Virus record (IMG/VR): IMGVR_UViG_3300037262_000012
Coordinates: 1 to 33,551 of that record
DNA from: a virus
Reading direction: 5' to 3' (one strand)
DNA: 33,551 bases
A program made the position numbers and the translations under genes. The first letter of the stretch is position 1. Each line of letters begins with the position of its first letter. The notes under the pieces are model-generated. The model saw only the letters and a list, made by a program, of their open reading frames with translations. It ran no database searches and had not been told where the DNA came from. This document shows, piece after piece, positions 1,516 through 28,511 of the stretch.

Positions 1516-3918
1516 CTACGGCGTTACAATCGTGGCGGCAACCCCGGGAGGCGTCGGGATCACGCCGGATTGTTCCAAAATCGCCAATTGGATGGCCGAC
1601 GGAATGAATGTGAAGTTATATGAAATCGCCATCGGCCCCGTGTTTAGCACGTAGGCCGCTCCGGCCCCGTAGAGGTTCTGCAGGATACGATTCATTGCGG
1701 GACACGTGGTGACACAGATATTTGCGAACGCCTTCGCGAGGATGAGCTGACGATAGGGATCGTCGTTCAATAGGTACGCCTCGGTGGAATTGAACCCGGT
1801 ATAAAACGGCGCCACGCCAGCTCCGCCCGGATTCTTTGATCCGAAATTATCCCAGTCGACCGAATGCGCGTTCGCAAAACCGAAGTAAGTCGCTGCGTTC
1901 GGGATGCGCAAGAGCCGCGAGACTCCCACGATCGCGCCGAGAATGTCGAGGCCGAATCCGATCGCGGTATCGATATTCCAGATCACCGATATGAAAGTAG
2001 CCACGTTCGCCGACTGATCGAAATACTGATTACAGTTATCGAGCCATTGCAGCAACGTCGGCGAGTTCGCGTATTGCGAGATAACCGTCGGCTCATAATC
2101 GAACACGGCGGAGGCGATCGATTGCCCAAGGGAGACCGTGAACGACACAAGCGAACCTGATGCGACAATCGTCCCGGCTGCCGGGTTCTGCGCCATAATC
2201 TCGCCGGCCGCAAAGATCGAGCTGTTCACGAAATTGACGGAGCCGACTACTAGCCCGAGATTCGTTATATCGAGAATCGCGGAGGGCTCATCCTCAAATA
2301 GGATAAGCGGAACGCGGATGGGTTCGAGACCGAGCGAGACGACGACGGATACCGCAGAACCGAACGAGCTATCGGCGCCCGCTGCCGGCGACTGCGATAG
2401 GATGAGGCCCGCGCTATAAATCGCGCTATACGCCGTGCCCACGGTGCCGAGCACGAACCCCGCGTTTTCTAGGACCATCTCGGCAGAGGGGACCGTTATA
2501 TCTACGACATTCGGCACCGTGGGCGACACATACCCCGAGACCGCGAACGCTATCGCCGCGCCGGCTCCGCCCGAGGCATTCCAATCGCTCGGAAAGTTCA
2601 CCGAAATCGGTGACGAGAGCAGCGTCGGCTGTGACTGCCCCATAACCGCCATGCCCGAAAGGGGTATACCGCTTACGCCGCCTTGCTGGAGGTAAGCGAT
2701 CTCGGCAATACCGGAGGGGAGCGCGGGCGATGAGGTAGCGACGTTTCCGGCGCCCACGACGGCGATAAACGTGCCCGTCTTACTCGTGGTGATCTGCGTA
2801 TCGAGGGCCGCGTAGCCGTTCAAGGAATCGGTGAACGCATAGTTCGGCAAGAGCACCGAGGCACCCGGATCGAATACGCCTGCAAGGTCTACGCCGGTAA
2901 ACGGCATAACCACGGCTTCCATTTCGGTACCGGTGACGGTAATCGTTAGATTCGTCGTGATCGGATCGATGCCGCCATAGACCGCGTACCACACCTCGGC
3001 ATCTGCGAACGTGGGAATACCTGCCGACGCGGCGCCCTTCTGCGCGTACAAGATCCAGTTTAAACCGCTTGTATCCGTGATGCTGACGACCGAGGGCGCA
3101 GTGTTCGCCCGGCCGCCCGCAGCGACCACGATAACGCCTTGTCCGAGCAACGTTACCACATCTGGCGATATGATCGTCGGCGAACCGGGGCTCGTGCTGC
3201 CCGTCTCGACTACTCCCGCTCCGGGTGTGTTGTCGGCTGATACAATGCCGATCACGATCATGGATGCCGCTTGCTCGTTAACGCCGAACGTCCAAGGGGA
3301 AGTAAGTGTAATCGGCGTCGCCAACGGCGCCGAAAGCGTCATCGCATCGATTTCTAATACTTGTTGCCGAAAGCTAAAAATTCCCTCGCTCGCAACGGTC
3401 GAAAGCGGAGGGGGCGCACCCACGTTCGCTTGCTCGCCGTTTGTAATCGCGATCAGCGTCACGCCCGTATTGAACGTGCCGACGGTCGCGACCATGTTAC
3501 TCGCCGGCTCGGTTGTGTTCTCCACGATGGCCGGCAGCGCTGCGCCCGATACACCCGGGTCAAATGGCCCCGAGAGGTTTACATTCATGATCGGCTGAAC
3601 GATGGCTAAGAGCTGTCCCCCGCCGCCGTTGAAATCTATAGTCACCGCTGTTGTCGTGGGTGATCCACTCGGCGTGACGGCATACCATACTTCAGTATCG
3701 CTGCCGACGTTACCGATAGGGTTCGCGCTAGCCGCGTAAGGTACCCATGTCAGCGCGGCGGTATCGACTACACTCGCCACGGTTTGATCGCCTGCCCCTC
3801 CTACGGTGCCCGTGGTCAGCAATAGGAAACAATTCGCGGGAACGGTAAACGATGCGGTCGTCAGCGTGGAGCCGCCACTGTTGCCGATTTTCGTCGCCGT
3901 TAGAAATTGATTGCTCAT
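1516..3918 (-). CDS. Baseplate protein: beta-module duplication + two PASTA domains + DUF2612
   Basis: This 800-residue protein is a mosaic. Residues about 1-228 and 235-460 are two diverged copies of a beta-rich module; both contain EVWYAV, a TT..TI strand and (F/L).G.FDPG.S..LP. Residues about 468-530 and 534-599 look like two PASTA domains (VP.V...S..A...LE.AGFV.G, later ILSQSPAAG and IMAQNPAAG). Residues about 608-800 match the DUF2612 family, with QYANSPTLLQWLDNCNQYFD, IWNIDTAIGFGLDILGAIVG and DDPYRQLILAKA. DUF2612 proteins sit next to gp25/J genes and are thought to be baseplate wedge components, usually of about 200 residues. The start overlaps the J stop (ATGA). PASTA domains are known to bind peptidoglycan, so the extension may help wall contact during infection; that is inference. 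Confidence 0.8.
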   Translation of the reverse strand: MSNQFLTATKIGNSGGSTLTTASFTVPANCFLLLTTGTVGGAGDQTVASVVDTAALTWVPYAASANPIGNVGSDTEVWYAVTPSGSPTTTAVTIDFNGGGGQLLAIVQPIMNVNLSGPFDPGVSGAALPAIVENTTEPASNMVATVGTFNTGVTLIAITNGEQANVGAPPPLSTVASEGIFSFRQQVLEIDAMTLSAPLATPITLTSPWTFGVNEQAASMIVIGIVSADNTPGAGVVETGSTSPGSPTIISPDVVTLLGQGVIVVAAGGRANTAPSVVSITDTSGLNWILYAQKGAASAGIPTFADAEVWYAVYGGIDPITTNLTITVTGTEMEAVVMPFTGVDLAGVFDPGASVLLPNYAFTDSLNGYAALDTQITTSKTGTFIAVVGAGNVATSSPALPSGIAEIAYLQQGGVSGIPLSGMAVMGQSQPTLLSSPISVNFPSDWNASGGAGAAIAFAVSGYVSPTVPNVVDITVPSAEMVLENAGFVLGTVGTAYSAIYSAGLILSQSPAAGADSSFGSAVSVVVSLGLEPIRVPLILFEDEPSAILDITNLGLVVGSVNFVNSSIFAAGEIMAQNPAAGTIVASGSLVSFTVSLGQSIASAVFDYEPTVISQYANSPTLLQWLDNCNQYFDQSANVATFISVIWNIDTAIGFGLDILGAIVGVSRLLRIPNAATYFGFANAHSVDWDNFGSKNPGGAGVAPFYTGFNSTEAYLLNDDPYRQLILAKAFANICVTTCPAMNRILQNLYGAGAAYVLNTGPMAISYNFTFIPSAIQLAILEQSGVIPTPPGVAATIVTP

Positions 3919-5759: not shown

Positions 5760-7627
5760 TACAAAACCCTCCTGAAAAAATCATAAGTGGCGGAGGCGGC
5801 TTGCGAGGCGTTGATAGTCTCGCCGCCTAGAACAATAAGAGATGGCGACGTGACTCCGTTACTACTGGCAGACTGCGATAGAACGGTGCCGAAGTTCACG
5901 CCGTCCGACGAACACCCCATCGTGTAAGTAGTACCGTCAAACGACATAAGTAGATAATGCCCTAAAATCGCGCTCTGACCTACGGCGTTCGGTATGTTGC
6001 CACCTGAGACAGCCGGTATATTTGAAAAAGGCGTCAATTCAGATTGTGAGTTCCTGTTGGGGCCGTCGCTGACAGAGTGACCGGTGTAGCTGGATGAGTA
6101 ACCGCTATACCAGCATGGCTCACCGTAACTGCTGTGCCACATGTCACCCCACGAGCACGCCGCCCCGGCTGCATTGGCGACGATGAAACCCATAAAATTG
6201 TATGTTTGCGTGAGACTAAGAGATCGTACTTTAACCAGAAACGCCCATGGGGGTGATGGCAAGGGCTGTGATATTCCCTGCCAGGTGCGCGTAGGTACGC
6301 CGCCATCGGGAGGGACTACTAGCTGAATGGCGCTATTCGCTATCGTGTATGTAAGCGGATTGGAACCGTTGATGTTGAACGGGGACCACCGCGCGTTCAA
6401 CGTGGGGCTGTCAAACTCATCATTCATGCTGTTCGGAGTGACCGGAGGCATGTCGGGCGTCCACGGGAAATAAATCCCCGCATCTCCCGTACCGAGAGTC
6501 TCGACGTATCCATTTAAAACATTGATCGATGTGACGCTCGTGACGGTGTTCGTACCATCGGTGATCGCGACCGATCCGCCACCTCCGCCCGTGATGGGGT
6601 ACCATCCCTTGACGCCGCTAGCGTTCGTGCTATACGAGTACGAATTGCCGGGGCTCGCATTGTCATTCACGAGTTCGAGCGCGGAGCCGCTCCACGTGAT
6701 CGAGCCCGTAACCTCGGACGGCTGTAGGGCGGTCCCCGCGAGCGTAAGAGCGGCTTTCGCACCCGTCGACAGATCCACCGTAAGAGTTCCCGCCGTCGTG
6801 ATTGGGCCTCCGCCGACGACGACGGCCGACGAACCCGCCGAGATATCGACGCTCGTAACTGTGCCCGAGCCTCCGCCTCCCGAGCCGTTCGACGCCGCAG
6901 TGATGCGCCCGTAAGCGTCGACCGTGGCATTCATGCTCGTGTAGCTGCCGGGGGTAACTGCCGTCGTGGGCAAATCGATACTCGTCGTCGGCCCGGTCCC
7001 GTTAACGATCGTAAGATTACCGCTCGTTATATTGGTGATCCCGCCGACGCCTCCGCCCGCGTAGGGATACCAGCCCTTAGTGCCGGCGCCATTCGTGGCG
7101 TACACGTAATTGAATCCGGGCGATGCCGAATCGCCGACAAGTTCGAGCGGGCTCCCGGGTGTTCCGGCGCCCGTAATCGAATCCGCAACGCTTAGCCCGG
7201 GATCATAGGGCGGCCACGTGGGCGGAGTCGGAGGGCTCGGGATCGTACCCGGGACGAAAGTCGGTATCGTGGGAGTGCACAAACCTATGCGGGCTGCCGC
7301 TGCGGTAATGGCTGCCGTGAGTGTTGCCACCTCCGCGACTAAGGCCGCCTCCGCTGCGACGTACGCCGTATAACTCGCAAGCTGCGGCGTTAGGTAATCC
7401 GTTATATAGGTTTCCACCCACGAGATTACAGCGGTCGGATTCGTCGGAGGCGTGAGCAACGCGAGGACCGGCGCGATAGTCGCTGTCTGTGCAGTGATGG
7501 ATGCCGTTAACGAGTTCAGAGAATCTACAGCCTCGGTAGCGATCGCCTGTAGCTCTGCACACGTCGTCGAGGCTTCTATCTGCGCTGTCAGATTCGCGAA
7601 ATATTCGGTATTTATTGGTCCGCTCAT
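5759..7627 (-). CDS. Large tail fibre / receptor-binding protein with lectin-like C-terminus
   Basis: The ATG at 7627 gives a 622-residue protein and lies 3 bases after the upstream stop; the longer open frame extends into the spike gene and has a non-natural composition. Residues 1-115 are Ala/Thr-rich and helical. A proline-rich linker is at about 119-144. Two copies of a fibre repeat lie at about 158-188 and 314-345 (LELV.D.ASPG, then KGWYP), separated by Gly/Thr-rich shaft sequence with DAYGRI and GTVTSVDIS. Residues about 402-622 begin DEFDSPTLNARWSPF, a pattern seen at the start of concanavalin-like lectin domains, and continue strand-rich. I read it as a baseplate-attached fibre that recognises the host surface. 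Finding it between spike and gp25 genes is an uncommon position. Confidence 0.72.
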   Translation of the reverse strand: MSGPINTEYFANLTAQIEASTTCAELQAIATEAVDSLNSLTASITAQTATIAPVLALLTPPTNPTAVISWVETYITDYLTPQLASYTAYVAAEAALVAEVATLTAAITAAAARIGLCTPTIPTFVPGTIPSPPTPPTWPPYDPGLSVADSITGAGTPGSPLELVGDSASPGFNYVYATNGAGTKGWYPYAGGGVGGITNITSGNLTIVNGTGPTTSIDLPTTAVTPGSYTSMNATVDAYGRITAASNGSGGGGSGTVTSVDISAGSSAVVVGGGPITTAGTLTVDLSTGAKAALTLAGTALQPSEVTGSITWSGSALELVNDNASPGNSYSYSTNASGVKGWYPITGGGGGSVAITDGTNTVTSVTSINVLNGYVETLGTGDAGIYFPWTPDMPPVTPNSMNDEFDSPTLNARWSPFNINGSNPLTYTIANSAIQLVVPPDGGVPTRTWQGISQPLPSPPWAFLVKVRSLSLTQTYNFMGFIVANAAGAACSWGDMWHSSYGEPCWYSGYSSSYTGHSVSDGPNRNSQSELTPFSNIPAVSGGNIPNAVGQSAILGHYLLMSFDGTTYTMGCSSDGVNFGTVLSQSASSNGVTSPSLIVLGGETINASQAASATYDFFRRVL

Positions 7628-7629
7628 AA

Positions 7630-8217
7630 TTAGCTCGCGTTCGTCACAATGCCATTCTGAACGGTAAACACGGTTCCGGTAACATCGGTTATCGTACCCG
7701 TGTATCCCGTGCCCACCGATAGATTGCCGCTCGTCTGCACCATCGGGGACTGAATCAAAACGCTCCCGCCTAGAAACTGTATGAACTGAGAGGGCGAGGC
7801 GTTCAACAAACTTAGGGCGCCGATATACACGCCGTCGGCCCAATCGAACAGCCGAGCGCTGCCGGGATTCGCGGGGCCTTTCGCGGCCTTGACCGACGCG
7901 ATATCGCGCGAGCAAAATCCGCACAACCCGAGATCCCCCGGCTGGGGATCGCAGATTATCGCATTCGGGCCGCCCTGTGTCCGCACAAAGGGTATCCCGT
8001 ATATCTCCCCGTGCTGCACGGCTTGCCCGTTTCCGGTTAGGAGATTCACGATCACTTTGACCGTAAGCTCGCTATCCGCGATTGCGATAACCTCCACGAT
8101 CGAGAGCGTCTGTACCTTCGTCAGCGCTGCGAGGATCTGTAGGTACGTCGTATTATATTCGTGCTGATCGGCGGAGCCCGTGGCAAGGCCGAATACCGCG
8201 TTCGCTGGCGTACTCAC
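7630..8217 (-). CDS. Baseplate central spike, Gp138 N-terminal type
   Basis: This 195-residue protein matches the Gp138/gpV-type spike family. Residues about 30-125 form the OB-like domain, with VQTLSIVEVIAI, VNLLTGNGQAV, GEIYGIPFVRTQGG, PGDLGLCGFCSRDIASVK and ANPGSARLFDWADGVYIG. The C-terminal part (about 145-195) is a short strand-rich tip with repeating GNLSVGTGYTGTITDVTG-like sequence. Such proteins form the trimeric needle that pierces the outer membrane when the tail contracts. The gene overlaps the stop of the hub gene by 4 bases (ATGA). The stretch with Cys at GLCGFCSR is slightly unusual but otherwise nothing is missing. Confidence 0.88.
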   Translation of the reverse strand: MSTPANAVFGLATGSADQHEYNTTYLQILAALTKVQTLSIVEVIAIADSELTVKVIVNLLTGNGQAVQHGEIYGIPFVRTQGGPNAIICDPQPGDLGLCGFCSRDIASVKAAKGPANPGSARLFDWADGVYIGALSLLNASPSQFIQFLGGSVLIQSPMVQTSGNLSVGTGYTGTITDVTGTVFTVQNGIVTNAS

Positions 8218-20326: not shown

Positions 20327-21025
20327 TTACTTGCCGAAAATCGAGCTGATGTTGTGTTCGGTCGAGACCGAAGAGGCATCGAACGCCGGGGAGGCCTTTT
20401 GCTTCCGGGCGCCGATATGCGCAGCCACGACCGCATCGAGCGCGGACGCGTGGATATGCTTGTGCGGAACCTTGATGGCGTCCAATGCGAAACGGTACAC
20501 GGCTTCGGCGCTGTCCATCGCGACAGTGATCGGCCCGACGAGCGGGGCGACGTCGCGCACGGCTTTGTGCTTCGCTTCGTTCGCGGCGACGGCCGCGATA
20601 GCCGCGTCGGTCGCGAGTTTCGTCGCCTGTACCACGCTCACGGAGTCGGCCGCCTTGCGCCCGCCTGTCCCGTGACTCTCGGCTTCTTTCTTCTCTTCGT
20701 CGGCGGCCTTTTTCTCAGCCTCATCCTTCGCCTTGCGATCGGACGCACGCTTGTCGCGAGCGGCCTTGCGGGAGTCGCGGGCCTTCTTACGGTCGCCGCG
20801 AGCTACCTCGCCTTCCTTTTTCTCGTCAGCCTTTGCTTCGGCCGAGTCCATCGATTCTTCGCGCTCGTCGCAGGCGGCCTCGCGCTCGTCGACTGCACCC
20901 TCGTCTATATCGTTTTCCTCGTCTTTCGCCTTCTTGTCGAGAGCGAGTTCGAGGGTTCGTTTCTGCGCCTCATCGAGTGCCAGGGCCGATGCGGCTACGG
21001 CGAGAATGGTTGCGAATCGTGACAT
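20327..21025 (-). CDS. Nested scaffold protein from an internal start
   Basis: An in-frame ATG at 21025 ([19 protein letters not shown]) is preceded by TTAGGACTGTCGAAC, with AGGA nine bases before the start. It would yield a 232-residue protein without the protease domain, covering the charged coiled region and the conserved end. This arrangement is the lambda C/Nu3 design, in which the scaffold is a separately started C-terminal part of the protease gene. The start and ribosome site are seen directly; that it is used is inferred. Confidence 0.68.
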
Positions 21026-21661
21026 GTTCGACAGTCCTAATGGTAGAGAATCGTTTACGAATACGTCGGGGCCTGCGCGCCCTTCACGTACTAGCGCTAC
21101 GTGGTTTCCAATAATGTCGCGCATCACGCCATCGTAATCAACCCCCTCCGGTGAAACACCCGGGGACATGTCGGCACGGTAGCGGTACGAGCTAGAGAGC
21201 TGCGCTGTTTTCTTCGCGAGGATATTATCGATAGCGCTCTGATCGTGGACAGTCAGAGACGCCTTAAGATAGGGGTGTTCGAACCGCACGTCGCTGCCGA
21301 GAGAGCCTACCCAATTCTCGCGCTTCGGGTCGTCCGCGCTTACCGCGACGTGGGTGTCGAGTAGCTGCAGGCGCGCGAACGTCGGCGCAGATTTCGCAAG
21401 CTCCACGGGGTCGCGGTAGAGTTTGTACACGCGCTCGGGGTCGAGCCCGAGTTCGTGCGCGCCCGGGATTTCCCGCCCGTAGTAGGGGTTTACCGTCGCC
21501 TTAGAAATGTTCGTGACGGCAACATGCAAACGATTGTCTTTATCGTAGGTACGCGAGGAAGGCGCCCGATCTGTAGCGAGCGTTAGCGAGTGGATCTCGC
21601 GCGTAAGCCGGGACGGGCTCGGTGCGCGATCAAAGGCTAAGACTTCGTTACGGAGGGGCAT
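20327..21661 (-). CDS. Prohead protease with C-terminal scaffold region (DUF2213 type)
   Basis: The ATG at 21661 gives 444 residues and falls just after the stop of the preceding gene. Residues about 1-205 match DUF2213 capsid maturation proteases: [25 protein letters not shown] (about 43-67), [75 protein letters not shown] and [23 protein letters not shown]. Residues about 232-340 are extremely rich in Lys, Glu, Asp, Arg and Ala, typical of a scaffold. The C-terminus (HNISSIFGK) may bind the capsid protein. An internal start at 21025 likely makes the scaffold part alone. The protein would cut itself and the scaffold during head maturation. Confidence 0.82.
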
Positions 21662-21682
21662 GACGGCAGTATCCGCGTCATG

Positions 21683-21707
21683 CCCCCGGGGTTTCAACCC
21701 CGTGCTA
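21683..21707 (-). promoter_or_regulatory. Hairpin element after the DUF5664-like gene, copy 2
   Basis: On the minus strand the sequence begins with the TAG stop, then CACGGGGTTGAAACCCCGGGGG. CGGGGTT pairs perfectly with AACCCCG around a GA tip. Copy 1 is at 14786-14806. The element sits just before the protease start at 21661 and could be a terminator-like or RNA processing site, or part of a late promoter. Confidence 0.5.
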
Positions 21708-22163
21708 GAAGTTAGGCGCTTTGATCTCGCGGAACACATGTTCGGTAAATACTTCGGCTCGTACCGGTGCTACGGCTTTCGCCGGCAGACGCGCACCCGG
21801 AGCCAACGGCGCCCCGCCATATTTCTCGTGTAGCTCTTGCGACCACATCAGCGCACGCCACGAGATCTGCGAAACTTCCGAGAGTAACGCCTCGATTACC
21901 TGAGGGGAGACGACGCCTTCACCTCGCTCGATCACTGCTATAATGTCTGCTACGTCCATCGTGTGTCGGACCACGCAGTCGGCATGATCGGTAGATTTCC
22001 CTCGCGCGTGGTGGAGCGGTTCGCCCGGGTTGTGCTTATCGTTCCCGGCCTTCGAGACGCGAGCCACGCCCGCGAGCGCTGCCGGCGCGTACTTGAGAAC
22101 TCCGCCGTATACGGGGACGTCCTTACGCGCGTTCGAGTCGGTGGGTAGGGTTAGTTTGACCAC
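21705..22163 (-). CDS. DUF5664-like protein, dATP/dGTP diphosphohydrolase N-terminal type
   Basis: This 152-residue protein resembles the DUF5664 domain also named as the N-terminal domain of phage dATP/dGTP diphosphohydrolases: [54 protein letters not shown] (about 17-70), then a helix and [19 protein letters not shown] (about 97-115). The conserved [22 protein letters not shown] segment is characteristic. A catalytic MazG-like second domain is not present, so activity is uncertain. It starts at a GTG with AGGGGGTC upstream and overlaps the HD protein gene by 13 bases, so the two are probably made together and may act on the same nucleotide pool. The C-terminal quarter is Ala/Pro-rich. Confidence 0.65.
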
Positions 22164-22789
22164 GGGAGACCCCCTGCGAGCTTGTGCGCGCGTGCCGTGA
22201 ACACCCGGCTCGCTTCCGTCGGGGACATCCCGCGCGGGGCGAAATACCGAGACGCGATAATCGGCGCCACCTTCTCGCGAAAATCATCTGCGGGTACGGG
22301 CCAATCGTCCGTAGTGCCTTTGGGGAAAAACTCAGCGGCCTCGATAAAGAGGGCGTACCAATCCGCGAGCTTTACGCCCGAGCTGATCTCGTTCGGTAGG
22401 CCGAAGCACTCTCTCATTTGTGTTTCGAGTCGGTGCTCGATCTCGCAGTACTCCGGTACGAGCGACTTCCACGGGCTCGGCATGTCGAGAAAATACGCCT
22501 CGTGTGCATCGTGCAGAAGGCCCTCGTACGACGCCGCAACAATGTCTAGGATCTTTTCGCCCGAGCGTTGGCAATCCACGATCTCGAAGCATAGGCGCGA
22601 GACGAGAACCGAATGCTCGGCGACGCTGTAGAACCTCGGGACGTGCCCCGAGAATCGGCATTGCATCGAGAGCGCATGTGCTACTTCCTCGATGTGAAAC
22701 TGGGGTTCGTCAATAAAAAACTTACGCCCCCCGTTCGTGTGAATCCATTTTTTCGGTAGGGTGGCGTATGCCTCTGCGGAGCTTTGCAT
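22151..22789 (-). CDS. HD-domain phosphohydrolase, YfbR/DatZ-like
   Basis: This 212-residue protein carries a clear HD phosphohydrolase core: IEEVAHALSMQCRFSGHVPRFYSVAEHSVLVS (about 33-64, metal-binding His59), LLHDAHEAYFLDMPSPWKSL (91-110, with the HD pair at 93-94) and a third metal-binding Asp in VKLADWY (139-145). The family hydrolyses phosphates from (deoxy)nucleotides and includes DatZ dATP phosphohydrolases of phages. It would act in the cytoplasm of the infected cell to adjust dNTP supply. It precedes the DUF5664-like gene. The ribosome site is AAGGA eleven bases upstream. Substrate cannot be decided from sequence. Confidence 0.78.
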   Translation of the reverse strand: MQSSAEAYATLPKKWIHTNGGRKFFIDEPQFHIEEVAHALSMQCRFSGHVPRFYSVAEHSVLVSRLCFEIVDCQRSGEKILDIVAASYEGLLHDAHEAYFLDMPSPWKSLVPEYCEIEHRLETQMRECFGLPNEISSGVKLADWYALFIEAAEFFPKGTTDDWPVPADDFREKVAPIIASRYFAPRGMSPTEASRVFTARAHKLAGGLPWSN

Positions 22790-22819: not shown

Positions 22820-24307
22820 CTAGGTGCGGTATTTTCCATCGATATATCGAATGATCTGTCGCTTACTGTCCCATTGCGTGAGTACGTCGGCGTTCGTCCA
22901 TCCGTTCAATCCATGATTATATTCGAGGCGTAGGCGCGTCTTAGTGCCGGCGCCGTAGTTTCCCTCATAGATATAATCGGTGTGACGGTGGAACGTGACC
23001 GACTTGTCGCCCATGTGCGCGAATGATTTCGCCGATCCCTTCGCGCCGTTCGCGCCGATGTCGCCATGTAACCCATGCTCGATGCCGCCCGGAGCGAACG
23101 ACTCGTCGAGGTGTAGCAGTCGGATGTTTGGGCGCATCGGCTCTACGTTCGGGTGCCGGAACCAGTAGTGCAGCGGGTCCGGGTACTCGGCGCCCTTCTC
23201 CGTGATCTTCGCGTTCCGGCGCATAAACAGCGCGGTCTCTAAGCCGAACTCGGAATTCTCGTGATCGGTGCGCCAATTGAATTCCTTCGCGATCCATCGG
23301 CGGAGCATGTCGTTATGGTTCGACGCTTGCACAACCCATAGTGCGTCACGATATTTAGCCGCGTTATTACGTGTCCACTCGATCGCGCGATTTACCTCGC
23401 GTCGGATGTTGTGCCGGCCTGCGTCATGCTTCGCCGCCGCTATCATCGGGTCGTCTTTATGGTGCGGGTTCACGGCGTAGCTATCGAGCAAATCAGGGAG
23501 AACGATCGCCTCCGGGTTCACCTCGCGAATGAGTTCCTCGGTAGCCTTCCACGTAACCGGATCGATGTAGTCGACGTGAATGTCGCCGCAGCCGAGAGCC
23601 TTCGCGCGGGGAGACTTCGAGACCTTGCCGTTCGGATGATACGTTAGGCCGATCGCCCCGTCGGTGGCATTGTTGTGATCTTTGGAGTAGTGGAACTGCC
23701 GAGTGTAGAATTTGTCGCCGTCGAGATCGATGAGCATCGCGCAGAGCGCATGATGGAAAGATCCGATCTTACCGCGCTTCGTGAGGGTGAAATTCTCTTG
23801 AGTGACTGCGCCCGTGGTCGATAAGAGCTTACCCATGCGGCCCGAGGGCACGGGCACAATGTGGCTCTGTAGCTTCACATGCCCGTAGATCGCCGAGGCC
23901 GGCCCGCTCATCGCGTCGAACCCGGAGAGCGGGGCGACGTCTGTCGGCTGTGTGGGAACGTCAGCGAATAGCGTTAGGTTCTTATTCACGCTGATCCGGC
24001 GTGACCACATGAAGTTCGCAAGCTCCGGCGCCCAATGTTCCGCATTCTTTTGCGAACCGCTCCATACACTCGTAGGGTTCTTATACCGAAGCGGGATAAC
24101 GAAAATCTCTCGCTTGTCCCGCTTCGCTTTGAGCTTAATGATCTCCCACCATTCGGGGTGTACGGGCGTTGCATTCTGAGCCGCGACCACGATCGCCCGA
24201 TTCCATCCGCTCGGCAGATCGCGACCGAACTCGATCGAAATTTGCGAAGCGTCTGCGAATGGGTTCGTCAGCGTTCGCAGCTCTGCAAGGGTGCCCGTAC
24301 TTTTCAT
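22820..24307 (-). CDS. Calcineurin-like metallophosphoesterase, T5 A1-like
   Basis: The ATG at 24307 gives 495 residues and falls just after the stop of the upstream gene; GAGG lies upstream. The C-terminal half has the metal-binding motifs of calcineurin-like phosphoesterases in order: GCGDIHVD (239-246), Asp-rich LPDLLDSY (270-277), ASNHND (328-333), HGDIGANGAKGS (414-425) and FHRHTD (439-444). The end, GNYGAGTKTRLRLEYNHGLNGWTNADVL then KRQIIRYIDGKYR, closely resembles the end of the T5 A1 (DNA transfer) protein and its relatives. In T5, A1 is needed for second-step DNA transfer and host DNA breakdown. The N-terminal 1-235 is beta-rich and less recognisable. A nuclease role in this phage is inferred. 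Confidence 0.72.
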   Translation of the reverse strand: MKSTGTLAELRTLTNPFADASQISIEFGRDLPSGWNRAIVVAAQNATPVHPEWWEIIKLKAKRDKREIFVIPLRYKNPTSVWSGSQKNAEHWAPELANFMWSRRISVNKNLTLFADVPTQPTDVAPLSGFDAMSGPASAIYGHVKLQSHIVPVPSGRMGKLLSTTGAVTQENFTLTKRGKIGSFHHALCAMLIDLDGDKFYTRQFHYSKDHNNATDGAIGLTYHPNGKVSKSPRAKALGCGDIHVDYIDPVTWKATEELIREVNPEAIVLPDLLDSYAVNPHHKDDPMIAAAKHDAGRHNIRREVNRAIEWTRNNAAKYRDALWVVQASNHNDMLRRWIAKEFNWRTDHENSEFGLETALFMRRNAKITEKGAEYPDPLHYWFRHPNVEPMRPNIRLLHLDESFAPGGIEHGLHGDIGANGAKGSAKSFAHMGDKSVTFHRHTDYIYEGNYGAGTKTRLRLEYNHGLNGWTNADVLTQWDSKRQIIRYIDGKYRT

Positions 24308-24311
24308 TTCA

Positions 24312-24656
24312 TTATGCCTCGGTGGATTGCATCGCGTCTTTGATTTGTTTCTGTTCCTTTCGAATCGTAGCCGCATCGGCCGGATTCGGGAACCACACTT
24401 GCAGCGGCGCCTTTGTGCCCTTCTTGCCGTTCTGTAGCTGTCGCACCTCGGCGGTATGCTTCTCGAATTGCTTTTTGACGAGGCGCATATGAACCGGAGC
24501 GATCTGCAGTTCGCTCAAAAGCTGGCCCTCTGTTTGGTACTCTACCCCCGCCTTTTTCAGCGCTGCAAGGTGCGCTGTGATTTTCGACGCAGCTACTACA
24601 CGGGGGTCAACAGTGGCCCGGAGGCTGTCAAGGGTTAAAGCGGATTTCTTTTTCAC
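24312..24656 (-). CDS. Putative winged-helix partner of the metallophosphoesterase
   Basis: This 114-residue basic protein starts at a GTG with AAAGGA upstream. Its core, EYQTEGQLLSELQIAPVHMRLVKKQFEKHTAEVRQL (about 39-74), has the helix-turn-helix-like pattern seen in small proteins that lie directly before T5 A1-like metallophosphoesterase genes in other phages, and the end has QVWFPNPADAATIRKEQK. T5 A1 works with a small DNA-binding partner, A2; this could be the analogue, but sequence similarity to A2 is not claimed. The gene ends 4 bases before the phosphoesterase start. DNA binding is inferred. Confidence 0.5.
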   Translation of the reverse strand: MKKKSALTLDSLRATVDPRVVAASKITAHLAALKKAGVEYQTEGQLLSELQIAPVHMRLVKKQFEKHTAEVRQLQNGKKGTKAPLQVWFPNPADAATIRKEQKQIKDAMQSTEA

Positions 24657-25261: not shown

Positions 25262-26101
25262 CTAGTCCTCAAATCCGGGGATAATTGCAGACGAGGTGCA
25301 GCGGCAGTTTATGAGCTGTCCCGGCTGCACGAAACGGCCCTTACCCTTGCCGTCGGCGTCGGGGTCCCACATGCCCGTCTCGATCTCGAAAAGCACGCCA
25401 TCGAACTCTACGTGCGTCGGGCGCGGTTCTTTGCCGGCTGAGCTGTGCTGCCATCGCGCCTGTGTCAGCCCGAGCTGAAGCCGGCGAACCTTGTCGATCG
25501 TGGCTGTCGCCTTCGCATTTTGATCGCGGGCGATGAGGGCCGCGCGGTTCACCGATACGCCGTATTCTTTGTGGAGCGACTTCGATAGGTCCGACATTTT
25601 GCCGCCGACGCGTACACTATTCCACACGGCCGACTGAACGTTTGTTTTATACTGATCCGCTACCGCTTTAATGAGGTTCACGTTTTCGGCGATCTCGCCT
25701 TTGTACGCGTTCAGCGCCTTTTGCGTCGGCTGAAATTTGATCGTAAACCCTGCGTCGGCGAGGTTCTTTGCGAACGTCGCTTGCGACATGGTGAACGATT
25801 TACCCGCGAATTTCTTCGATATATCGAGCGACATTTTATCGAGCTTTAGTGTCCATTTCTTGGACCAATCCTTAAGCGTTCGGTCGATGTTGGCTTGCGG
25901 GCTGCGCTTGCGCGCGTCGTGGGTAATGCCATCGGGCGGCGTCTCCGCGAATGCGAGTGAGAGCTGCAGGGATATGTCGAGATGCATCTCGCCGATAATC
26001 GCCTCTAGCTGCTTTTGGTACCACACGCGTACGCCCGCGTTCGGCTGCGTCGCGCGAACTACTACAGCTTTGCGGGTGCGGCCTCGAATCGTTACGGGCA
26101 T
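25262..26101 (-). CDS. Head morphogenesis protein, Mu gpF-like
   Basis: This 279-residue protein matches the Mu gpF / SPP1 gp7 minor head family. The C-terminal core contains VNRAALIARDQNAKATATIDKVRRLQLGLTQARWQHSSAGKEPRPTHVEFDGVLFEIETG (about 182-243) and ends PGQLINCRCTSSAIIPGFED. The Arg-Asp-Gln-Asn helix, H/S and the CRC turn are diagnostic. The protein is a minor capsid component associated with the portal and often needed to start head assembly. The N-terminal half is helical. It overlaps the stop of the 59-residue gene by 10 bases. Confidence 0.82.
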   Translation of the reverse strand: MPVTIRGRTRKAVVVRATQPNAGVRVWYQKQLEAIIGEMHLDISLQLSLAFAETPPDGITHDARKRSPQANIDRTLKDWSKKWTLKLDKMSLDISKKFAGKSFTMSQATFAKNLADAGFTIKFQPTQKALNAYKGEIAENVNLIKAVADQYKTNVQSAVWNSVRVGGKMSDLSKSLHKEYGVSVNRAALIARDQNAKATATIDKVRRLQLGLTQARWQHSSAGKEPRPTHVEFDGVLFEIETGMWDPDADGKGKGRFVQPGQLINCRCTSSAIIPGFED

Positions 26102-27892: not shown

Positions 27893-28065
27893 TTCGCACC
27901 TCGGGAGATCGCGGCGACGTGCCGGTTCAGATTGCGCCGGCTGATCTTATGCCGCTTCGCGATCTTAGACCACGACTCGACGTACTTGCGTCGGCGGAGC
28001 TGTGCTTTAATTACCTTGCGTAGCTCGCTCGTCAGCTTCGATTCGGTGGGGTTCTTGCGACTCAT
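27889..28065 (-). CDS. 58-residue helix-turn-helix protein between terminase and portal genes
   Basis: This gene is short and easily missed. It begins at the ATG at 28065, overlapping the endonuclease stop (ATGA), and its stop overlaps the portal GTG. The protein is strongly basic with a helix-turn-helix-like pattern WSKIAKRHKISRRNLNRHVAAI near residues 32-53. In tailed phages a small DNA-binding protein close to the large terminase is often the small terminase, but this one is very short for that and lacks an oligomerisation domain. It may be a packaging cofactor or a transcription factor; I cannot decide between these. Confidence 0.65.
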   Translation of the reverse strand: MSRKNPTESKLTSELRKVIKAQLRRRKYVESWSKIAKRHKISRRNLNRHVAAISRGAK

Positions 28066-28511
28066 TTAAACATCTCCAGTAGTTTCGCGGGGTCGATACC
28101 CTCGTGATTGCAAATATAAATCAAAGCGAGGGCCACGCCCGCAGCGGTGTCGCCGAGGTGTCCGATTCCTAAATTACAGCGATTGCAAAGCCTCCCGCGA
28201 AACTCGCCAGTCCGATGCACATGATCTAATGCTAGAGCTTGTCTCGTCTGGATACAACCGCAGCACTCGCAATGTATGGGCTCGGGGCGCGCCGGGAACG
28301 GCAAGCCCGTTATGTGTCGTTTATAGTTTCGACGTTCCTCGGCTGTCCGCTTGCGGTTATGAAACTTTACCTTTTCCGGGTTCTTCGCGCGCCATCGAGC
28401 CGTGGCCGCTTTCGCCCGCTCGGGATGCGCTTTGCGCCATCGAGCCGCAGCTTCACGCGCACCGTTCGGGTTTCGCTCTCGCCACCTTTGCTGTGCGGTT
28501 TTTTCCGTCAT
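28062..28511 (-). CDS. Endonuclease VII-like HNH nuclease
   Basis: This 149-residue protein has the zinc and catalytic pattern of recombination endonuclease VII-type HNH nucleases: CECCGC (81-86), LALDHVHRTGEFRGRLCNRCNLGIGHLGD (93-121). C83/C84, C109 and C112 would bind zinc, and D96-H97 with N113 form the HNH core. The N-terminal 60 residues are a basic helical region with RWR...NP repeats (RWRERNP, RWRKAHPE, RWRAKNPE), typical of free-standing phage HNH proteins. It overlaps the terminase stop (ATGA) and the next small gene (ATGA). A role in packaging, resolving branched DNA, is plausible; a homing role is possible. Confidence 0.8.
   Translation of the reverse strand: MTEKTAQQRWRERNPNGAREAAARWRKAHPERAKAATARWRAKNPEKVKFHNRKRTAEERRNYKRHITGLPFPARPEPIHCECCGCIQTRQALALDHVHRTGEFRGRLCNRCNLGIGHLGDTAAGVALALIYICNHEGIDPAKLLEMFK

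Follow-up and report, generated by a model that had tools for sequence, protein, structure and literature searches.

A metallophosphoesterase that resembles A1 of phage T5 and is encoded directly behind a small winged-helix protein, in the midst of phage head genes, raises the question of what such a pair does and whether it is the counterpart of T5 A1 and A2. Among known host takeovers that of T5 is one of the fastest, and it requires A1, whose mechanism has been debated for decades, the protein being regarded as a nuclease, a modifier of RNA polymerase or a counter-defence enzyme. The stretch of DNA analysed here (the window), a virus record, comprises 33,551 bases and is a fragment in which the genome ends are not seen. 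Both ORFs were found on the minus strand where the initial annotation had placed them, and read in that direction the genes are TerL, endonuclease VII, portal, Mu-F protein, two small ORFs, the winged-helix gene and A1, followed by an HD dNMP phosphatase, a PF18909-like gene, a DUF2213 protease, cement, a phrog_264 capsid, sheath, tape measure and baseplate. Profile matches of these neighbours identify the setting as a myovirus head operon, as the initial annotation had proposed; it had made no mention of the HD dNMP phosphatase and PF18909-like genes immediately 3' of the pair. The features considered below are as follows:

24312..24656, minus strand: predicted winged-helix protein, 114 aa, GTG start behind AGGA
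22820..24307, minus strand: A1-family metallophosphoesterase, 495 aa, proposed nuclease subunit, ATG behind GAGG, phrog_1745 at 1.7e-102
22151..22789, minus strand: HD-type dNMP phosphatase (YfbR-like), 212 aa, phrog_318 at 2.1e-52
21705..22163, minus strand: PF18909-like protein (dATP/dGTP diphosphohydrolase N-terminal domain), 152 aa, PF18909 at 5.4e-4, below cut-off
25262..26101, minus strand: Mu-F-like head protein, upstream context, PF04233 at 2.8e-13
20327..21739, minus strand: head maturation protease DUF2213, downstream context, phrog_2229 at 2.1e-112

A longer ORF of 518 aa is also present for the A1 gene, the length of 495 aa being that from the chosen ATG. The endonuclease VII gene, at 28062-28511 between TerL and portal, has a second copy in contig L001, where it lies just before Mu-F.

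The match of the 495-residue product to phrog_1745, annotated 'DNA transfer protein', spans profile positions 87-540 of 542 and bears out its assignment to the A1 family. Comparison with A1 of the T5-like phage Spc35 gave 28% identity over 474 columns, with residues 37-493 homologous and the same ligand residues, and a tblastn search with the window A1 returned matches in 1121 of 50,697 phage records. The ligand pattern DxH, D, NH, H, HxH is complete, and D242, H244, D272, N330, H331, H414, H440 and H442, which the calcineurin-type motif pattern predicts to be the ligands of a two-metal site, are conserved without exception in the 28 aligned A1s, a set that takes in Demerecviridae (three), jumbo, Autographiviridae and Cellulophaga phages; the complete ligand set claimed at the outset, including H331 and H442, was thus confirmed. 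In an AlphaFold2 model of the enzyme (pLDDT 88.1), residues 232-492 adopt a metallophosphoesterase fold whose nearest structural neighbour is the PolD DP1 exonuclease (Z 13.1, 198 residues, 3.2 Å), followed by SbcD/Mre11 (Z 10.8-11.5), while few structural matches reach the N-terminal region at residues 37-231. Close behind these nucleases come LpxH, a non-nuclease (Z 11.0), and Ap4A hydrolase, another member of the superfamily, such that the predicted fold favours a nuclease without proving one. Despite this likeness in predicted fold, A1 differs from SbcD/Mre11 and DP1 in having no detectable sequence match to them, an N-terminal region of its own and a partner. Searched against the sequences of solved structures, the window A1 gave no phmmer match and, with a profile, one weak and irrelevant match; a scan of bacterial genome contigs for relatives yielded 50 pattern matches, none of which was confirmed.

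For the 114-residue product, AlphaFold2 predicted (pLDDT 83.5) three helices and a beta wing with one extra N-terminal helix (residues 9-16), and most PDB neighbours of this model are winged-helix proteins, the highest Z, 6.6, being modest. Model and neighbours agree with the small winged-helix partner of the initial annotation, which had further implied a parallel between the pair and T5 A1 and A2. Like A2 (phrog_1725, 'DNA binding protein'), the small protein is encoded upstream of A1, but the identification as A2 was rejected, as BLASTP against Spc35 A2 gave an E-value of 4.0 and phrog_1725, the family into which Spc35 A2 falls, was not matched; the part of the window most similar to A2 (E 0.99) lies outside the small gene. 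The window has a winged-helix gene where T5 has A2. Two queries of an annotated phage collection found no homologues of the winged-helix protein.

We searched for the pair in other phage contigs, and it recurs: the winged-helix gene immediately precedes a metallophosphoesterase gene in 20 of the 20 contigs that have it (L003, close to L004, and L086, close to L085, being counted separately), with an A1 as partner in 17 and an exonuclease-annotated enzyme in three. Second copies (L005, L077, L078 and L089-L091) were merged with the window, L002, L010, L083, L085 and L086, respectively. Scans baited with A1 located a homologue of the small gene immediately 5' of A1 in ten contigs and the window, while a scan baited by the L010 small protein alone returned ten contigs, of which nine had not been reached with A1; in all nine the next gene encodes a metallophosphoesterase (A1 in six). 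A profile of 18 small proteins detected no further small gene among the 9,343 ORFs of all loci then in the set. L082-L084 have another enzyme as partner, 355-365 aa in length and assigned to phrog_284 'exonuclease' from the match of the L083 protein (6.7e-47), the one of the three that was run against PHROGs. These enzymes, and that of L088, have a calcineurin-type ligand pattern as A1 does, but belong to another subfamily, and a profile comparison with A1 reached only E 0.12. The pairing of the winged-helix gene with a metallophosphoesterase gene is thus real, contrary to the prospect that it would never be seen elsewhere.

The A1s that adjoin a winged-helix gene share a further property. All 17 have a short tail before the core in place of an N-terminal extension, whereas an extension of 59-156 residues is present in 62 of the 65 A1 records without the gene, a set that includes L011 (cut at the contig end), L070 (two ORFs), several near-copies and the partial enzymes L059, L065 and L066; L019 and L058 have short A1s with neither extension nor winged-helix gene. 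The window A1 has 36 residues before the core, counted from the chosen ATG, versus 101 in Spc35, and is therefore without the T5-like extension of about 100 aa, although the count would be 59 from the earlier ATG and this region varies in length across the family. The extension of RcRhea A1 matches HTH_8 over the cut-off; other matches fall below it, such as zinc ribbons in L012 and L017, and most extensions reach no Pfam cut-off, those of L028 and L074 having no Pfam match. Those extensions that can be recognised from sequence resemble HTH or zinc ribbons. Extension and winged-helix gene are mutually exclusive, and the small protein corresponds better to the fused extension than to A2.

In the tree of A1s, the split enzymes come close to forming one clade, which is nested among zinc-ribbon forms, and the split state requires at least two changes, one of which is forced by well-supported branches. 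Given this near-confinement to one clade, the 17 A1 cases are not independent and largely represent one lineage; the phrog_284 pairing is a second enzyme case beside it. In L088, the N-terminus of the phrog_284 relative is HTH-like (HTH_50 at 7e-4, below cut-off), with no tag of the kind described below in the enzyme sequence and no winged-helix gene found there by profile. The N-terminus of the A1 family appears to be an exchangeable DNA-binding module, one that may also exist as a separate protein; this points to DNA as the substrate of A1.

The small proteins and their partner enzymes also have in common a motif near the N-terminus, which takes the form LxxFRxxHD in most of them; in the window it reads TLDSLRATVDP in the winged-helix protein and TLAELRTLTNP in A1. 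A profile built from the tags of the winged-helix proteins only was run against 8,460 ORFs, from which the small genes had been removed and L003 and L086 left out, and its best ten matches are all partner enzymes (from 1.5e-4 for L079 to 0.29 for L081). Fourteen of 18 partner enzymes stand among the 40 best matches, those of the window, L001, L002 and L027 being absent from these 40. Assessed locus by locus, tag similarity is strong in L003, L004, L010, L013 and L014, weak in the window, L001, L002 and L015, and at chance level in L009 and L027; for the window pair, an equal or higher score is reached by 12 of 300 shuffles and by 3 of 131 ORFs. A regular-expression hit in L025 was taken as chance. 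The tag is therefore clear in the wider group but weak in the window itself. Tags of a locus's own pair are more alike than those of mixed pairs (20,000 permutations, p = 0.006), a comparison in which shared descent is uncontrolled, so we claim no co-variation. Possible roles for the tag are binding of the two proteins to each other, docking of both on some third partner, and signalling export or packaging. A literature search by title and start of abstract, which mostly did not extend to subscription journals and preprints, returned no description of the winged-helix partner or of the tag.

These observations bear on the possibility that the winged-helix protein is not a targeting subunit but, like an antitoxin, keeps a toxic nuclease in check as its inhibitor or as an autorepressor. 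Although a small DNA-binding gene preceding its enzyme, and often overlapping it by 4 bases, would suit such an arrangement, the gene is absent from all 65 records of other A1s, nearly all of which are extended, a distribution that replacement of a domain explains better, and the tag common to both partners likewise speaks against restraint; we regard it as unlikely.

Immediately 3' of A1, an HD dNMP phosphatase is encoded in 8 of the 20 contigs (the window, L001, L003, L004, L009, L027, L085 and L086), while in L002 a DUF4406 protein takes this position. HD motifs of the window enzyme are conserved in 7 of 7 aligned homologues, and its Pfam YfbR-like match is below cut-off. The next gene scores 20.3 against PF18909, short of the 27-bit cut-off, whereas the L085 homologue, at 41.5, exceeds it, and in phage Paso, of a different family, the gene immediately after A1 is itself PF18909 (9.6e-24). 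In T5-like phages too a deoxynucleoside-5'-monophosphatase follows A1, the order in Spc35 being A2, A1 and this enzyme. The likeness to T5 Dmp is one of position and activity; we rejected homology, as BLASTP gave no meaningful match and the HD protein belongs to phrog_318 versus phrog_415 (a weak HAD match) for Spc35 Dmp. A 2-aminoadenine genome, a candidate suggested by the pairing of HD and PF18909 genes, was likewise rejected, with the PurZ family in none of 12 records, all possibly fragments. The recurrent link to dNMP and dNTP enzymes fits host-DNA breakdown.

The initial annotation had suggested, among other readings, a head-bound or injected nuclease. If the pair were loaded into the head, the shared tag would be its head-targeting signal, and both the head-operon position in the window, L001-L004, L009 and L015 and the occurrence of one N-terminal tag on two non-homologous proteins speak for this reading; the internal proteins of T4 likewise share an N-terminal tag. 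The tagged pair is, however, also found within replication modules (L013, L014, L027 and L085) and after tail genes (L083 and L084). Moreover, the head genes of L015 are closer to those of the window than are the head genes of L004 (TerL 53 vs 43% identity, Mu-F 49 vs 38%), whereas its A1 is more distant (39 vs 64%) and groups with those of L013 and L014 on the tree, so that A1 seems to have been exchanged in place, independently of the head genes. Given these locations and this exchange, the position in the head operon looks like residence rather than function. Replication-module location and the HD dNMP phosphatase favour host-DNA salvage over virion delivery, which we consider improbable. 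What stands of the initial annotation is an A1-family enzyme with a winged-helix partner, but neither the T5 A2 equivalent nor the injected nuclease. At L015 6729-8563, a winged-helix gene resembling those of the window and L002 precedes an A1 of another clade, an apparent recombination between the partners.

T5 provides the closest functional precedent. Host-DNA degradation by T5 is described as requiring A1 in passages of PMC13250531, PMC8541194 and PMC3556154, the first of which also has Dmp degrading the nucleotides so released, and a passage of PMC8108384 gives A1 as essential and dmp as dispensable; nuclease activity of A1 itself is called unreported in a passage of PMC8541194. The T5 gene lies in the first-step-transfer repeat, the terminal repeat injected first with its pre-early cassette, but the window pair lies between the Mu-F and protease genes of a 33.5 kb fragment. 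Damage to host DNA is attributed to a mycobacteriophage metallophosphoesterase in a passage of PMC12287305.

Two other functions have been put forward for A1. According to passages of PMC3556154 and PMC8541194, T5 A1 and RNA polymerase co-purify, a role at the polymerase being the one favoured for phiCbK and KASIA, and an A1 in a replication module is read there as binding RNA polymerase only; A1 might by analogy bind the host polymerase while the winged-helix protein sets promoter choice, with no nuclease role. A catalytic ligand set complete in 28 of 28 A1s and the swapping in of an exonuclease-type enzyme in L082-L084 make such a transcription switch very unlikely. Alternatively, A1 could destroy the cyclic nucleotides or oligonucleotides by which host immunity signals alarm, the winged-helix gene merely regulating it. 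A passage of PMC7824862 predicts counter-signal activity for T5 A1 orthologues, and LpxH and Ap4A hydrolase do score near the nucleases, but a module that looks DNA-binding recurs either fused or in trans, the neighbours are a dNMP phosphatase and replication genes, and the alternative partner is an exonuclease family, for which reasons we hold this counter-defence role to be unlikely.

The explanation that we judge to have slightly better than an even chance is a split A1-type nuclease, in which DNA binding would be supplied by the winged-helix subunit; activity, substrate and timing are here extrapolated from the evidence above. Catalysis would fall to the 495-aa protein, as a two-metal phosphodiesterase that belongs to the T5 A1 family but lacks the usual N-terminal extension, and the 114-aa protein encoded just before it would bind DNA in trans, the short helical tag on both probably joining them or docking them on a common partner. 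Such a complex would attack host DNA, and the released dNMPs would be dephosphorylated for salvage by the adjacent HD enzyme, with the PF18909-type enzyme possibly reducing the dNTP pools. The scheme would follow the logic of T5 A1 and Dmp, but with a different phosphatase and placement in a structural operon. For a nuclease that acts early on host DNA, a place in a late operon is unusual and counts against the split-nuclease explanation.

More tentatively, and with somewhat less than even confidence, we propose that the system is modular, one family of tagged winged-helix proteins serving interchangeable A1 and phrog_284 nucleases. The split form would replace fused HTH or zinc-ribbon modules and would have arisen at least once per enzyme family, the common tag acting as an assembly code; the phrog_284 enzymes of L082-L084 bear the tag, and their partners come from the same winged-helix family. 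The split form offers a soluble two-part version of A1 for purification, together with a short tag open to simple mutations.

Several minor observations concern the surroundings of the pair. An HslV-like peptidase gene (phrog_1040), not found in the window, lies immediately 5' of the winged-helix gene in 10 of the 20 contigs:

L001 6645-7109; L002 7192-7635; L003 1168-1617; L004 7171-7620: HslV-like gene
L009 812-1255; L015 6274-6723; L079 5475-5927: HslV-like gene
L080 1929-2390; L082 5517-5978; L083 5465-5935: HslV-like gene

Contigs with a zinc-ribbon A1 have an HslV-like gene just 3' of A1 (L017 6997-7428, L018 9353-9784, L020 9347-9778 and L021 9330-9761), and in L013 a Band_7/SPFH membrane-scaffold gene (7152-7688) is immediately 5' of the winged-helix gene. 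The small protein of L087 has gained an additional HTH-like stretch (below cut-off). Elsewhere in the window, positions 1516-3918 encode a structural protein in which one or more PASTA domains adjoin a DUF2612 domain.
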